From NCBI GenBank assembly GCA_035656635.1, contig DASRSD010000148.1, positions 1-35,159 on the forward strand: a stretch of DNA of 35,159 bases, written 5' to 3'. Below, piece after piece: positions 15,610 through 20,817 of this stretch. The position numbers and the translations under genes are program-made. How positions within the stretch are numbered: the stretch's first letter is position 1; each line of letters begins with the position of its first letter. Below the pieces are notes generated by a model. It ran no database searches and was not told the origin of the DNA. It saw only the letters and a list, made by a program, of their open reading frames with translations. This DNA comes from Pirellulales bacterium (GTDB lineage Bacteria > Planctomycetota > Planctomycetia > Pirellulales > JADZDJ01).

Positions 15610-15648
15610 AAAAAAACCCCGGTGAAACCTTGGCGGGTCTCATCGGGG
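15610..15648 (-). terminator. Leader hairpin; intrinsic terminator when read leftward
   Basis: CCCCGGTGA (15617-15625) pairs with TCATCGGGG (15640-15648), with one G:U, and a further AACC/GGGT inner pairing. On the minus strand the stem is followed by TTTTTTT. It would stop antisense transcripts coming leftward out of the transposase gene before they reach the regulator promoter. In the plus-strand transposase leader it is simply a hairpin. Confidence 0.5.
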
Positions 15649-15728
15649 CAAAGACAACTAGGCTTTCGCCCAATCGTCCCTTGACAAGTTTGATTGTAGC
15701 GAGAGCCGCCGAAAAAGGCGACTTCGCA

Positions 15729-16694
15729 ATGGTCATTTCGACATGCTCACATGAAAGCTATGAAAAAAACGGCAAAACCAAGAGCGGTGCAATCCGTTTC
15801 CGCTGCAAATTGTGCGGTAAGTCGTGGACAGAATTCACCCAAGCATTCGATGGAATGCGTATCGGCATGGACTTGGCCGTGAAGATTATCAGCTTGATTT
15901 GTGAGGGAACGTCAGCATCGGCTGCTGCTCGCCTAACGAATACCGATGTCCACACAGTCATTGATTTGATGGTAATGGTAGGCCAGCGGTGCTCAGAATA
16001 CATGGCCCGCGCGATTAAAGGCGTTCATGTTGACGATGTTCAAATTGACGAAATTTGGCAGTTCATTTATTGCAAAAACTACACGGCCAAGGAGGAAAAA
16101 ATCGTCGGCGGTGCCGGGGATTCCTACTGCTACACGGCGATTGAGCGCAATACAAAACTGTTGATTTGCTGGCACTTGGGCCGACGCAACGAACCCGATA
16201 CGCACGAATTCTGCCGCAAGTTAAATGACGCCACAACCGGCGCGTTCCACCTGTCCAGCGATGGGTGGGCATCGTATCCGTTTGCTGTCCATCGTCAGAT
16301 TGGCAATCGCGTTGACTACGGCCAAGTAATCAAGTCATTCAAAGAACCGATCAAAGAGGACCGCCGCAAGTATTCGCCGGCCAGAATAATACGAATGGAA
16401 AAGCAGTGGATAATGGGCAACCCGGATATGAACCGTGTTTGCACTTCACACTGCGAGCGCATGAACGGGTCGATTCGCAACTTCTGCAAGCGGATGGGCA
16501 GGCTGACCTATTGCTTCTCAAAGCGATGGGGCAACCACCAAGCGGCCCTGGGCCTATTCTTTGCCCATTACAACTTCTGCCGGAAGCATCGCACCCTGGG
16601 CCGGATTACACCAGCAATGGCCCACGGCCTGGAGGATCACGCCTGGACCGTGCGGGAGCTTTTGGAGAAGATTATACAGGTTGCCCACACTTAA
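15729..16694 (+). CDS. IS1-family DDE transposase (single-frame type)
   Basis: This is a 321-residue transposase that cuts and joins the element's ends. An N-terminal zinc-ribbon-like segment (CSHESYEKNGKTKSG, then CKLCGKSW) covers residues 6-33, and a helix-turn-helix follows (SASAAARLTNTDVHTVIDLM). The catalytic triad is read as D107 (QIDEIW), D178 (SSDGW) and E243 (HCERMNGSIR). The spacing and the DEIW and RMNGSIR signatures fit IS1/InsB-type enzymes. The classical two-frame IS1 arrangement with ribosomal frameshifting is absent; this is one continuous gene. An in-frame extension to 15630 lacks conservation and overlaps the leader hairpin, so the ATG at 15729 is preferred. The stop codon lies inside the right inverted repeat. 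Confidence 0.88.
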   Translation: MVISTCSHESYEKNGKTKSGAIRFRCKLCGKSWTEFTQAFDGMRIGMDLAVKIISLICEGTSASAAARLTNTDVHTVIDLMVMVGQRCSEYMARAIKGVHVDDVQIDEIWQFIYCKNYTAKEEKIVGGAGDSYCYTAIERNTKLLICWHLGRRNEPDTHEFCRKLNDATTGAFHLSSDGWASYPFAVHRQIGNRVDYGQVIKSFKEPIKEDRRKYSPARIIRMEKQWIMGNPDMNRVCTSHCERMNGSIRNFCKRMGRLTYCFSKRWGNHQAALGLFFAHYNFCRKHRTLGRITPAMAHGLEDHAWTVRELLEKIIQVAHT

Positions 16695-16706
16695 TCACAC
16701 ACGACC
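16684..16706 (-). repeat. Right terminal inverted repeat of the IS element
   Basis: Read inward on the minus strand it begins GGTCGTGTGTGATTAAG and ends TGTGGG, mirroring the left end. It contains the last three codons of the transposase gene. Confidence 0.85.
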
Positions 16707-16714
16707 CTCAGCCC
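16707..16714. repeat. Target-site duplication, right copy (CTCAGCCC)
   Basis: Exact copy of 14338-14345, directly outside the right inverted repeat. An 8-bp duplication is within the range made by IS1-type transposases. Confidence 0.85.
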
Positions 16715-16719
16715 GGTGC

Positions 16720-17053
16720 TAGCAAAGTTGGCATGCGGTTTGCTCCTATTGGGGAGCCGTTCGAAGCATGCTCGAACGCCGGAAAGCCGAACGGGGCCGG
16801 AACACAGAAGAGGAAAGTCCTGTATCGGGGCCGGTTATCGGAGAAGTCGATGCCAACCGACCACATCTTGGCATCGATAGAAATGGTGGCTGATTTCTCG
16901 GTTCTGGAACAGGTTTAGGCATGGCGCCGGAACGCCATCGAAAGAGAAGGGTAGCCGTGATTCGAAAGAACCGAGCCTAAACAAATCAGCCATCGTTATT
17001 AGCAGGGCGAGTTGGGATACCAGAAGAGGTTCCCAACTCGCCTGCTCTTTTTT
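16720..17053 (+). ncRNA. Candidate structured small RNA with pseudoknot, family unknown
   Basis: No convincing gene fits here, but the folding signal is strong. A hairpin pairs TCGATGCCAA (16847-16856) with TTGGCATCGA (16868-16877). Then TGGCTGATTT (16887-16896) pairs with AAATCAGCCA (16983-16992) and encloses a pseudoknot. In it, CTCGGTTCT (16897-16905) pairs with AGAACCGAG (16967-16975), and GTTTAGGC (16913-16920) pairs with GCCTAAAC (16975-16982). A small ATGGCG/CGCCAT hairpin (16921-16938) sits in the loop. The strands abut with almost no unpaired bases, as in stacked pseudoknots. A strong intrinsic terminator at 17001-17053 ends the unit. Weaker hairpins lie upstream (GCTCC/GGAGC near 16742, GTTCGA/TCGAAC near 16759). 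The 5' end is uncertain and I find no clear promoter; the IS inserted just upstream. GAGGAAAGTCC at 16810 matches the RNase P core word, but the rest does not fit. Confidence 0.65.
17001..17053 (+). terminator. Strong intrinsic terminator of the candidate small RNA
   Basis: AGCAGG-g-CGAGTTGGGA (17001-17017) pairs with TCCCAACTCGCCTGCT (17031-17046), a 16-bp stem with one bulged G. An inner ACC/GGT pairing narrows the loop to AGAAGA. The stem is followed by C and then TTTTTT. No protein gene ends just upstream, so it must serve a non-coding transcript. Confidence 0.85.
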
Positions 17054-17701
17054 GCGTGCCCCATTATTGAACACCTGTGCGATTATGCAACGCGCCGCCA
17101 GCTCTCCGCTGGTCCAAAATCGATCTCAATGCGGGCCAATCTGCCGTCTCATTCAGATTCTTTTTTCCAGATTTGGGACGAAAATGGCTGGCTGAGCAGG
17201 GGTCTAAGGAAGGAATCACGGTTTTTAGAATTTTTTTCTTCGGCGGCAACTGTGGAACTTGAACGACAACCTGGCGAGTCCAGCATCACGGGCCGTGCCT
17301 AATTTGAACGAAAAATAGATGCAGCGACGGCTATCCCCCGGCCGTTTTGTTCGAGAAAACAGCCGGCGTCTAGGGACAGACGCCGCTACAATCCTTCCAA
17401 ATTATGCGACCACAACATCACGAACTTGCTAAGAGATTTTCGGGGCTTTTGATAGAATCGGGGTTAGTGTTGTGCCGGGAAATAAACCTGGGTATTGGTG
17501 CAGGGCGAATCGACTGGCGACTATGGGCTGGGTGGCCGTGGCGTGGCAGCGGCCCAGTATCCACCTGCGCGGGGTTAAATTCATAGTGTGCCAGAGGTAA
17601 TGTAAAGGATGCAAAGCGTGCATCCTGGTGACTCGACCGATCCGGCAACAGGCGCTGGAAAAATTGCGAGCTCACAATTGCACAAGCCAAGGGAGCAGAA
17701 C
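17054..17701. other. Gene-free stretch upstream of the DUF1549 gene
   Basis: I see no convincing coding frame in these 648 bases. They hold a small palindrome of dispersed-repeat type (GGCGTCT with AGACGCC, about 17365-17385, followed by GCCGCTACAAT) and a perfect hairpin, GGATGCA-aagcg-TGCATCC (17607-17625). The hairpin lies about 75 bases before the next start codon and could sit in its leader. TTGCTA and TTGATA 17 bp apart near 17428-17456 are a weak promoter candidate. Confidence 0.5.
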
Positions 17702-19471
17702 ATGGGAAGAATTGCGGCCAGCGTTAGCGCGATAATTCTTCTAATTTTTGCCGTCCACGTGTTGCCGGCGGAGGAAAATTCATCTCCGCCGCTGTCTCGC
17801 CCAGCGAGCATGACCGCCAGCACCACATCGTCCAGCTCCGCGGGCTCGATTTCTTCCGGCACGAATTCGGCCACATCCAAAACGGTTGCCGCCGAGCAAG
17901 TGCGGTACATCAACGATTACATTCACCAGGGCTGGCAAGCGCACAATTTGCTGCCTTCGCAGACGGCGACCGATGGCGAATGGTGCCGCCGGCTGTTTTT
18001 GGATTTGTTGGGCCGCATTCCCGACGTGGACGAAGTGGAAGGCTACTTGCGCGATCACTCGCCCGACAAAAAACAACACTTGGTGAACAAGCTGTTATCG
18101 GAAGATTATGTGGAGGAGTACGCCAACAATTGGGCCAACGTGTGGACGACCATTCTTATCGGCCGGCCGCCGGCACAGCCCGACCGGCGTTCACTGGTCG
18201 ATCGAGAAGGAATGCAAAAATATCTGCGCGATACGTTCGCCCGCAACAAGCCATACGATCAAATGGTGACCGACCTGCTGACGGCGGACGGCTCCAACAA
18301 GCCGGGCGAGGAAAACTTTCACGGCGCGGTGAATTTCCTGATTGGGAACATGGAAGATAGCGGCGTCAATGCCACAGCCAAAACCGCCAAAGTATTTCTG
18401 GGTCTGCAAGTGCAGTGCACGCAGTGCCACAATCATCCGTTTAACGATTGGAAGCAAAATCAGTTTTGGGAATTGAATGCCTTCTTCCGCCAAACCAAGG
18501 CGGTGCGCGAAGGCCCGCGCCGTACGCCCGAGCCGGTGGCCGAGCTCATCAACTCGGATTTCAACGGCGATCCCGGCGCTCCTAGCCCGGCGCAGGCGCT
18601 ATTGTTTTACGAGTTGCGCAACGGACAGTTGAAATCGGCCTATCCGGTGTTTGTCGACGGCACGGAAATCAATCCCGATGGGCGAGTTTCGAAAGTGAAT
18701 CGCCGCGAGGAGCTGGCCAAGCTGGTCAAATCTTCGCCGTACATGGATCAGGCCATTGTCAACCGTATGTGGGGACATTTCCTGGGTTACGGCTTCACCA
18801 AGCCGGTGGACGACATGGGTCCGCAAAATCCGGCTTCGCATCCGGAGCTGCTGGAAAAGCTGGCCAAAGATTTCGGCGCGCACAGCCACGACCTGAAGCA
18901 GCTTATCCGCTGGATTGTGCTCAGCGAGCCGTACGGCCTGTCGAGCAAAATGATGAAGGGGCATAACGACAAGGACGACCCCACTAAGGGCGAAAAGCCC
19001 ATGTTCAGCCATTTCTACCTGCGGCAAATGCAGCCGGAGCAGTTGTACGAATCGCTGCTGGTGGCCACGGCGGCCGACAAAACGCTCCGCAATTCCGACG
19101 AGCAGGAGCGGACGAAAAATCAATGGCTGCGGCAGTTCACCATTACCTTTGGCACGGACGACGGCGCCGATTCCACCACCTTCAACGGCACCATTCCGCA
19201 AACGCTGATGATGTTCAACGGCGATTTAATTCGCCGCGCCACCAACACCGGGCAGGGGGATTTTCTCGATCAACTGGCCAACGACGCCAAAATGAACAAC
19301 GCCGACCGCATCAATCGGCTGTTTTTGGCCACCGTGGCTCGTCGGCCGAACCCGGAGGAAATCTCCTGGGCGAACAAACTTTTGACTGCTCGCAAGGGTG
19401 ACCCCGTGGGCGCCCTGCAAGATGTATTTTGGGTTACGCTTAACAGCGCCGAGTTTATTTTGAATCACTGA
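17702..19471 (+). CDS. DUF1549/DUF1553 domain protein, secreted
   Basis: This is a 589-residue protein. A signal peptide covers residues 1-22 (GRIAASVSAIILLIFAVHVLPA) and a Ser/Thr/Ala-rich linker of about 35 residues follows. DUF1549 covers about 60-270: INDYIHQGWQAHNLLPS, then RLFLDLLGRIPDVDEVEGYL, then VQCTQCHNHPFNDW, where a single CxxCH lies at C239-H243. DUF1553 covers about 340-580, with YMDQAIVNRMWGHFLGYGF and LATVARRPNPEEI. The in-frame start at 17609 is less likely than the ATG at 17702, which has GGAG upstream and begins the signal peptide. Such proteins are abundant in planctomycetes, nearly always next to DUF1501 genes. The function is unproven; CxxCH suggests a haem- or metal-linked exported protein. 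Confidence 0.93.
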   Translation: MGRIAASVSAIILLIFAVHVLPAEENSSPPLSRPASMTASTTSSSSAGSISSGTNSATSKTVAAEQVRYINDYIHQGWQAHNLLPSQTATDGEWCRRLFLDLLGRIPDVDEVEGYLRDHSPDKKQHLVNKLLSEDYVEEYANNWANVWTTILIGRPPAQPDRRSLVDREGMQKYLRDTFARNKPYDQMVTDLLTADGSNKPGEENFHGAVNFLIGNMEDSGVNATAKTAKVFLGLQVQCTQCHNHPFNDWKQNQFWELNAFFRQTKAVREGPRRTPEPVAELINSDFNGDPGAPSPAQALLFYELRNGQLKSAYPVFVDGTEINPDGRVSKVNRREELAKLVKSSPYMDQAIVNRMWGHFLGYGFTKPVDDMGPQNPASHPELLEKLAKDFGAHSHDLKQLIRWIVLSEPYGLSSKMMKGHNDKDDPTKGEKPMFSHFYLRQMQPEQLYESLLVATAADKTLRNSDEQERTKNQWLRQFTITFGTDDGADSTTFNGTIPQTLMMFNGDLIRRATNTGQGDFLDQLANDAKMNNADRINRLFLATVARRPNPEEISWANKLLTARKGDPVGALQDVFWVTLNSAEFILNH

Positions 19472-19542
19472 TTCCATTAAGACTGTGAGCCCCGATTTTT
19501 CCGGGGATGTGAATACGCAGGCCACTGAATTGGAGAACCGCC

Positions 19543-20817
19543 ATGTTCAACTGTAATTGTCCTTCCGGCATGACTCGCCGTCACTTCATGACGCACTTGG
19601 CAGGCACCGCAGCCTTGGCTTCGCCGGCCATTGCTTTCACCAACACGCTGCTGGCCAATGCCGTTGATATGAAGCGGAAGAACAAAGCCTGCATCATGCT
19701 GTGGATGGGGGGCGGCCCGGCCACCATTGACATGTGGGACATGAAGCCCGGCTCGCCCACGGCCGGCGCGTTTAAGCCCATTTCCACCAAAGTAGACGGC
19801 CTGCAAATTTGCGAGCATCTGCCGCAGTTGGCCAAGCAAATGGATCAACTGGCCGTCATTCGCTCTATGAGCACCCGCGAAGCGGACCATGGCCGCGGCC
19901 GCTATTACATGCACACCGGTTATGTGCCCAACCCAACGATCGATCATCCCAGCTACGGCGCGGTGGTGGCTCACGAACTGGCCGACAAAATGCCGCATCT
20001 CGATATTCCCCCGTTCGTTTCTGTCGGCAGCGACAGCATTGGCCCCGGATTTTTAGGCATGACCTGGGCGCCATTCGTCGTCGATGCCAATGGCGATGTG
20101 AAAAATCTGAACAATGGCGGCAACATGGATCGCATGAACGAGCGGCTTACCGTACTCGAAGCGATGGATCACCAGTTCATGTTCGAAAATCGTGGCGAGG
20201 CTGCCGACGACCATATGAAAGTGACGAAAAAAGCCGTCAGCCTGATGACCAGCAAGCAAATGGCCGCCTTCAAAGCAGCCCAAGAGCCGCCGGATGTGCA
20301 GGAGCGTTACGGCAAAACCGGGTTCGGCAAAGGCTGCCTGATGGCCCGTCGCCTGGTGGAAGCCGGCGTGCCGTTTGTCGAAGTCGACATGGGAGGCTGG
20401 GATACGCACAGCAACAACTTCACGACGCTTGAGAAAACAAAACTGCCCGAGCTAGACAAAGCCATGTCGGCCCTCATTACCGATTTGAAAGATCGCGGCC
20501 TGTACGATTCCACCGCCATTATGTGGCTGGGCGAATTTGGCCGCACGCCGCGCATTAACGGCAACGCCGGACGCGATCACTATGCTCGCGCTTGGAGCGT
20601 GGTGGTGGGCGGAGGCAGCTTCAAACGCGGTGTGATCGTGGGCGCGACCAACGAAGATGGCACGCAGGTGACCAGCGATCCTTACACTTCGCAAGACCTG
20701 ATGGCCAGCGTGCTGAAATCGCTGGGTATTTCGCTCGACACCACCTTCACCAGCAACAGCGGCCGCCCAATGAAAATCGCCAACAGCGGCAAAGTAATTA
20801 AAGAGCTGTTTGCTTAA
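19543..20817 (+). CDS. DUF1501 domain protein (alkaline-phosphatase-fold, exported)
   Basis: This is a 424-residue protein with a twin-arginine-type leader (MTRRHFMTHLAGTAALASPA, the arginines at residues 12-13), so export by Tat is likely. The body is one DUF1501 domain: KACIMLWMGGGPATIDMWDMKPG opens it, EHLPQLAKQMDQLAVIRSM and STREADHGRGRYYMHTGY follow, then VPFVEVDMGGWDTHSNNF, and near the end WLGEFGRTPRINGNAGRDHY. These conserved Asp/His/Gly motifs are those of sulfatase/phosphatase-like folds. It lies 71 bases after the DUF1549 gene on the same strand. The two are a standard planctomycete pair whose joint role is unknown. Confidence 0.93.
   Translation: MFNCNCPSGMTRRHFMTHLAGTAALASPAIAFTNTLLANAVDMKRKNKACIMLWMGGGPATIDMWDMKPGSPTAGAFKPISTKVDGLQICEHLPQLAKQMDQLAVIRSMSTREADHGRGRYYMHTGYVPNPTIDHPSYGAVVAHELADKMPHLDIPPFVSVGSDSIGPGFLGMTWAPFVVDANGDVKNLNNGGNMDRMNERLTVLEAMDHQFMFENRGEAADDHMKVTKKAVSLMTSKQMAAFKAAQEPPDVQERYGKTGFGKGCLMARRLVEAGVPFVEVDMGGWDTHSNNFTTLEKTKLPELDKAMSALITDLKDRGLYDSTAIMWLGEFGRTPRINGNAGRDHYARAWSVVVGGGSFKRGVIVGATNEDGTQVTSDPYTSQDLMASVLKSLGISLDTTFTSNSGRPMKIANSGKVIKELFA

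Follow-up and report, generated by a model that had tools for sequence, protein, structure and literature searches.

A predicted non-coding RNA gene in the window

The DNA analyzed here, called the window throughout, is a stretch of 35,159 nucleotides from a Pirellulales bacterium. Sequence features predict that it contains a non-coding RNA of about 16755-17053 on the + strand, which ends in an intrinsic terminator. The features of this region are as follows.

16728..16744, + strand: sigma54-type promoter TTGGCATGCGGTTTGCT (GG-N10-GC), the sole match without mismatches to TTGGCAYRNNNNTTGCW in the window
near 16755, + strand: predicted transcription start, placed from the sigma54-type promoter
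16793..16813, + strand: site 1, in which 20 of 21 nt match the complement of a conserved sRNA segment (duplex -40.8 kcal/mol)
16827..16849, + strand: site 2, a degenerate copy with a mismatched center (GGGGCCGG...GGAGAAG), giving the second-best duplex (-33.0 kcal/mol)
16847..16877, + strand: 10-bp hairpin (16847-16856 with 16868-16877), exact pairing
16887..16992, + strand: body domain with a 10-bp closing stem (16887-16896 with 16983-16992), exact and partly kept in relatives
16897-16905 with 16967-16975, + strand: inner 9-bp stem of the body domain, exact pairing
16913-16920 with 16975-16982, + strand: crossing 8-bp stem (the pseudoknot of the original prediction), exact in the window
16926..16952, + strand: possible weak third site GCCGGAACGCC...AAAGAGAAGGG (-27.2 kcal/mol, the level of shuffled controls)
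17002..17053, + strand: intrinsic terminator; stem 17002-17017 with 17031-17045, 15 bp with one bulge, then six T
17057..17092, no strand assigned: palindromic DNA element of a degenerate TGT-N11-ACA type; half-sites 17057-17073 and 17076-17092, 19 bp apart

The promoter, the motif at site 1 and the downstream palindromes are the better conserved parts of the locus, and they were absent from the original prediction, which had described a pseudoknotted small RNA with its own terminator. The helices on which that description was based were exact on recomputation: the 10-bp hairpin, the 10-bp closing stem and the two crossing stems of 9 and 8 bp, with base 16975 claimed by both of the latter. The arrangement was also beyond chance, as had been proposed. 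None of 400 dinucleotide shuffles had crossing 8- and 9-bp helices inside a 10-bp stem, and the crossing pair alone, without the enclosing stem, was present in 9 of the 400. There were three perfect helices of at least 10 bp (shuffled mean 0.04) and six of at least 8 bp (shuffled mean 0.67). The predicted fold of the 334 nt from 16720 to 17053 was more stable than that of shuffled sequences (z = -5.7; none of 100 as good). The terminator was present, but its stem has 15 bp with one bulged G, followed by six T, and not the 16 bp first reported. Judged by open reading frames, only short or overlapping frames cover the stretch, in agreement with the earlier view that no protein gene fits.

We searched for known RNA families. 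There was no Rfam 15 family at the gathering score anywhere in the window. The Rfam search that had been suggested was run over 16600-17150 and matched no family; below threshold it gave only chance-level matches to other families (best E = 2.7). Neither ARAGORN nor Rfam detected a tmRNA in the window, and there was no match to RNase P RNA (RF00010); the earlier exclusion of tmRNA, RNase P RNA and SRP RNA holds with Rfam and ARAGORN. The sequence GAGGAAAGTCC at 16810-16820 resembles what we take to be a conserved stretch of RNase P RNA. We rejected an RNase P identity for the window RNA because the genome's own RNase P RNA is on another contig (C107). The plasmid collection gave no match. The suggestion of a relationship to the Rhodopirellula-1 motif found no support in the search of the window against Rfam 15, which may not include that motif; a table row for the motif in PMC2864571 shows no Rfam accession. 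No described family matching the gene was found in the searched literature, which included PMC2864571 and PMC9029176.

Poor conservation of the crossing stem in the nearest relatives

We compared the window with two other genomes of its family, and scored conservation of structure on a three-sequence alignment of the window, a relative of the same genus (L003) and a relative of the same family (L004). The match in L003 was 77% identical across most of the window RNA. L004 was matched at the terminator, and by reading its layout was like that of the window. As aligned, the closing stem kept 9 of its 10 pairs in L003, with compensatory changes, and 3 of 10 in L004; the inner stem kept 8 of 9 pairs in L003, again with compensatory changes, and 1 of 9 in L004. 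Of the 10 pairs in the hairpin at 16847, one was kept in L003 and six in L004. A shifted form of this hairpin can be drawn by eye in L003, as can a shifted closing stem in L004. The crossing stem kept 4 of its 8 pairs in L003 and 2 of 8 in L004.

This stem-by-stem pattern gives partial support to the body domain and none to the pseudoknot. Because the crossing stem is poorly conserved in the two nearest relatives, the pseudoknot does not appear to be the essence of the RNA, and the original suggestion of a ribozyme or guide RNA defined by it is not supported. That the RNA is such a structured RNA is extremely unlikely in our view: the exact crossing helices, whose full arrangement was found in 0 of 400 shuffles, speak for it, and the poor conservation of the crossing stem in L003 and L004 and the lack of an Rfam match speak against it.

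A motif of the RNA is complementary to a conserved, predicted sRNA of the same genome

The sequence GGGGCCGGAACAGAGAAGAGG recurred in weak matches from other genomes; the copy in the window, at 16793-16813, has one mismatch. Of 296 genomes of the order, 146 contained this motif within 2 mismatches; a control with the reversed pattern gave matches in two (G032 and G059). Many genomes had one perfect and one imperfect place. The two kinds of place differ in context. Read on the other strand, a perfect place has CGGCCTCTTCTCTGTTCCGGCCCCGCCG, a loop, CGGCGGGG and a run of T, and thus resembles the 3' end of an sRNA. Of the imperfect places, 37 of 40 inspected share the layout of the window by reading: a sigma54-type promoter, site 1, often a second site, a body, a terminator and downstream palindromic half-sites. 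The terminator often contains GGCGAG..CTCGCC, and in most of the 37 the half-sites are 19 bp apart. This first set consisted of 40 imperfect places among the matches listed; six near-identical places from one or two genera and some single places were omitted.

The window's own genome has an sRNA-like gene of the first kind on another contig (G000:C19; L019, about 1390-1556, + strand, about 165 nt predicted). It has a sigma70-like promoter, its own terminator and the segment CCUCUUCUCUGUUCCGGCCCC before and within the terminator stem, and it lies between an inositol-phosphatase-like frame (by reading) and another frame. A set of 30 sRNA-like loci had the terminator stem in common, with compensatory changes in some, as well as a -10-like element and a variable body. 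A -35-like TGGAC was present in 29 of the 30, and the remaining locus (L032) has TAGAC. These loci were chosen by a perfect motif, so that the identity of the segment among them is by selection. Seven sRNA loci, including that of the window's own genome, had no Rfam match at the gathering score. In the named genome collection, the exact 21-mer occurred in at least 120 stretches. Among the 80 matches listed, 79 were from planctomycetes (Pirellulales, Gemmataceae, Isosphaera, Paludisphaera, Singulisphaera and others) and one was from an organism named only 'bacterium'. An sRNA-type T-run rule fit 72 of these 80 stretches, and six of the other eight were sRNA-like with a weaker T run. Two loci with the exact 21-mer, L259 and L296, have sigma54-like promoters and a sponge-like look.

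The conserved segment would be the region through which the sRNA pairs. In the window's own genome, the sRNA gene and site 1 are the sole matches to GGAACAGAGAAGAGG with at most 1 mismatch. G106 and G008 each had one further place within 1 mismatch of the 15-mer, which counts against a sponge. Site 1 and the conserved segment of the sRNA from the same genome are complementary at 20 of 21 nt, as expected of an sRNA sponge. The predicted duplex (-40.8 kcal/mol) was not equaled by any of 500 shuffled RNAs (mean of the best duplexes -26.0, sd 2.9, extreme -39.2) or any of 500 shuffled seeds (extreme -33.8). The predicted fold leaves site 1 partly open, and much of the sRNA segment is predicted to be paired in the sRNA alone. 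The duplex at site 2 (16827) reached -33.0, and further places reached about -27, the level of shuffles. Because the best duplex of shuffled RNAs averaged -26.0 and one reached -39.2, site 2 taken alone is suggestive but not significant.

In homologous loci, the second site often matches the sRNA at both flanks and not in the center. Of 101 loci, 73 had a bipartite pattern (45 of them once and 28 twice) and 28 had none; no locus had it after its sequence was reversed or reverse-complemented (0 of 101 in each control). The 101 loci comprised the 60 site-blind loci described below and 41 selected through the motif or their resemblance to the window; L043, L044 and L076 were excluded as another context. 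In at least three loci (L050, L051 and L068) the second bipartite match sits in the terminator. L043 (G020:C68) has a 2-mismatch copy of the motif after a frame; the copy can form a hairpin of its own, and the locus is without the sponge layout.

Sites are enriched in homologs found without the motif

To recognize homologs without using the motif, we used a covariance model (R2) of the terminator and the downstream palindromes alone, built from 28 loci with two clean half-sites among 44 inspected. R2 matched 132 of 296 genomes of the order. From these 132 genomes we took 60 site-blind loci, mostly by order of score. Genomes fetched by the motif or already obtained had been set aside, which biases this test against sites. 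Of the 60 loci, 39 had a site with at most 5 mismatches in 21. The controls were near zero: dinucleotide-shuffled loci gave a mean of 0.1 (largest 1) and shuffled motifs a mean of 0.3 (largest 2), and the opposite strand had no site. Homologs of the window RNA thus have sites in excess over chance, as would members of a class of sRNA sponges.

We then asked how sites relate to the sRNA, counting as positive the 143 genomes with a strong match (E below 1e-8) to a model of the sRNA (R1) and counting 19 genomes with weaker R1 matches as lacking it. The mean best duplex with the sRNA core was -25.9 kcal/mol in the 45 loci with a strong R1 match in the genome, compared to -17.5 for shuffled sequences (15 shuffles per locus), and -19.6 compared to -15.8 in the 15 loci without one; energies differed between the two groups (Mann-Whitney p = 0.0016). 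A site within 5 mismatches was present in 35 of 45 loci with the sRNA and 4 of 15 without (p = 0.001). The contrast was also seen when we required at least 90% completeness and no more than 5% contamination (28 of 37 versus 2 of 12, p = 0.0005) and when each genus was represented by a single genome of this quality (23 of 31 versus 2 of 9, p = 0.008). A limit of 6 mismatches weakened it: p = 0.048 for the 60 loci, 0.013 for the better genomes, 0.044 for one better genome per genus and 0.14 for one row per genus and status. Over 296 genomes, 111 had both genes, 32 the sRNA only, 21 the RNA only and 132 neither, in a count that, like the others over the 296 genomes, takes no account of phylogeny. 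Ten of the 45 loci with the sRNA had no site at 5 mismatches, which counts against a sponge; judged by duplex energy, 7 of the 15 loci from genomes without the sRNA still resemble site carriers, and some of these genomes are incomplete.

The same data bear on the idea that the motif is a binding site for a protein and that its complement in the sRNA terminator is coincidental. CsrA sites contain GGA, and so does the motif. However, the 21-nt complementarity is found in both genes across families and the presence of sites follows that of the sRNA, and we consider this explanation very unlikely.

Because the sRNA segment hardly varies in the sequences inspected, matched changes in the two partners cannot be seen. 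A search for variant sRNAs using R1 with looser filters in 23 genomes (the 21 with window-type RNA and no strong R1 match, plus G007 and G052) gave only weak matches, the best with E = 1.4e-4. Seven weak loci were inspected. L202 was rejected as coding-like (its other strand carries, by eye, an RNase III-like frame), and L224 as the antisense of a sponge site; the others, apart from L206, were chance-like. L206 (G043:C19) has a 13-nt piece of the sRNA segment (CCTCTTCTCTGTT) without the terminator stem; its genome had no strong sRNA match.

Four genomes (G043, G053, G105 and G228) have kept the RNA gene with no site within 7 mismatches, and have C-rich runs instead. Such runs (CCCTCCC, CCCCCC) were present in 18 of the 60 site-blind loci, whereas mononucleotide shuffles gave 3.9 and the opposite strand none. 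Loci with them include L177, L178, L179, L190 and f7 loci such as L057; in some lineages the sites are missing, and in others the runs accompany them. A pure sponge does not explain the C-rich runs. They raise the alternative that the window RNA itself regulates mRNAs through C-rich or purine-rich loops and that the sRNA is its antagonist. The excess of C-rich runs over shuffles, and their retention in lineages in which no sRNA was detected (L177-L179 and L190), fit this reading. On the other hand, the window RNA has no C-rich run, and the sRNA varies little while the sites vary, which is what would be expected of a hub and its sponge. We regard direct regulation of mRNAs by the window RNA as unlikely.

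A sigma54-type promoter and downstream palindromes

At 2 mismatches, the TTGGCAYRNNNNTTGCW pattern was no more common in the window than expected by chance. Of the 60 site-blind loci, 46 have a similar promoter motif at a distance of 140-470 nt before the terminator module; neither the opposite strand nor the reversed control gave any (0 of 60 each). A gene for sigma54 was present in 24 of 24 genomes checked; because these included genomes without window-type RNA, its presence does not discriminate. A predicted -24/-12 promoter together with rpoN places the gene, by sequence, in the sigma54-dependent class.

Palindromic half-sites follow directly after the terminator and are TGTTGCAAAATTGAACA-like in homologs, many of which share the terminator stem GGCGAG...CTCGCC. 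The copy in the window is degenerate, with 5 mismatches in each half. Strong palindromes (at most 3 mismatches) were found in 22 of 246 genomes, each inside an R2 match, and the copy in the window was not among the 22; none of these 22 double palindromes lay away from a window-type gene. The palindromes sit downstream of the gene and not upstream, and they may perhaps function as a downstream sigma54 enhancer.

Genomic neighborhood

Downstream of the window RNA there is a PSCyt2/PSD1 (DUF1549/DUF1553) and DUF1501 gene pair (17609-20817), in which the PSCyt2/DUF1549 gene occupies 17609-19471. When 52 loci, including the window, were searched for a relative of PSCyt2, 31 showed synteny, with one lying downstream in the same orientation. 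Because of this recurrence, we considered that the window RNA could be a 5' leader or attenuator of the PSCyt2/DUF1549-DUF1501 operon, in which pairing of the sRNA would set termination versus read-through. The RNA is indeed in the position of a leader, with a promoter and a terminator. However, 21 of the 52 loci had no PSCyt2 relative within roughly 1.2-2.5 kb downstream (two longer contigs, L296 and L259, were searched whole), so the gene is not always upstream of a DUF1549 gene on the same strand. Other neighbors vary (MATE-like, miaB-like and others, by reading of frames), and in L097, L105, L108 and L411 the next long downstream frame is on the opposite strand. The genomes of three of these loci (G165, G126 and G161 for L097, L105 and L108) keep strong palindromes. 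Given the loci without PSCyt2, the varied or opposite neighbors and the palindromes kept, we take the gene to be free-standing with its own downstream element. A leader is improbable, and we rank it below a sponge. The original inference of a stand-alone, trans-acting RNA of a planctomycete class agrees with the homologs in 132 of 296 genomes, the promoter, the terminator and the absence of a fixed neighbor.

Directly upstream of the window RNA there is an IS1-like transposase gene (15630-16694). Similar transposase frames were upstream in G001 (L100) and G002 (L096) and were not seen in the other ten loci inspected.

A probable sponge for a conserved sRNA

Each of the two partners is a conserved non-coding gene with a promoter-like sequence and a terminator of its own, and the complementarity between them is strand-specific. 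Based on these sequences, 16755-17053 is probably a stand-alone non-coding RNA, transcribed by sigma54 polymerase, that serves as a sponge (target mimic) for the conserved sRNA of G000:C19. Because its sites match this sRNA almost base for base, the window RNA is probably a switchable decoy. An enhancer-binding protein, perhaps bound at the palindromes downstream of the terminator, would activate sigma54 polymerase, and the activated polymerase would make the window RNA. The RNA would offer a near-perfect complement (site 1) and probably another whose center is mismatched (site 2). By capturing the sRNA it would free mRNAs from control by the sRNA, which may act at purine-rich ribosome-binding sites such as AGAAGAGG.

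A wider scheme is possible, although we doubt that it holds as a whole. The pair may form a class-wide planctomycete hub, in which an Hfq-free sRNA with a near-invariant 21-nt segment is matched by a dedicated, sigma54-controlled target mimic whose activator binds the palindromes downstream of the terminator. The unpaired center of the second site may protect from double-strand cleavage, and after loss of the sRNA the mimic may have been re-armed with C-rich loops for another partner.

Sponges for sRNAs in enteric bacteria are bound by Hfq or ProQ. Hfq was found in 0 of 9 planctomycete genomes in which positive controls were detected. CrcZ of Pseudomonas is a sigma54-dependent decoy RNA with repeated sites that captures Hfq/Crc; the proposed decoy would share its sigma54 dependence and repeated sites, but the target of CrcZ is Hfq/Crc and not an sRNA. 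The plant target mimic IPS1 has a pairing site with a mismatched center, like site 2, but it is eukaryotic and acts on a microRNA with Argonaute. GlmY draws off the protein RapZ by resembling GlmZ. The window RNA would also be a sigma54 decoy, but it is complementary to its partner, whereas GlmY resembles GlmZ. GlmY is described as a decoy sRNA, made from a sigma54-dependent promoter, that favors another sRNA (PMC7073468, PMC6075780). Antagonists of sRNAs that have been described include anti-sRNAs encoded by phages of E. coli (PMC4104026), an RNA that counters PinT (PMC12721325) and a cis-encoded antagonist processed by RNase III (PMC8687705). Like the anti-sRNAs, the window RNA is expected to pair with an sRNA and counter it. 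In contrast to them, it is a separate gene with its own sigma54-type promoter and complementarity of up to 21 nt in its class, its type often has a second site with a mismatched center, and no Hfq was found (0 of 9 genomes).

Among the best matches in the open-access literature, we found no description of an sRNA circuit in Planctomycetota, and RNA regulation is little known in planctomycetes, the setting of the proposed decoy. If the sponge reading is true, it would provide a planctomycete sRNA circuit with both partners, their promoters and a testable 21-nt contact, with no Hfq found, and a way into the role of sigma54 in Planctomycetota.

The sRNA would be expected to repress an mRNA with a AGAGAAGAGG ribosome-binding site. 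A search of four genomes for candidate mRNA sites (15-mer, at most 2 mismatches) gave 39 places compared to 18 with the reversed control, and most of the 12 inspected were within long open frames. One candidate target of the sRNA, in the window's own genome, is L369 (G000:C181), in which the ribosome-binding site, GGAGCAAAGAAGAGGCAATG, resembles site 1; by reading, its frame resembles a polysaccharide flippase.
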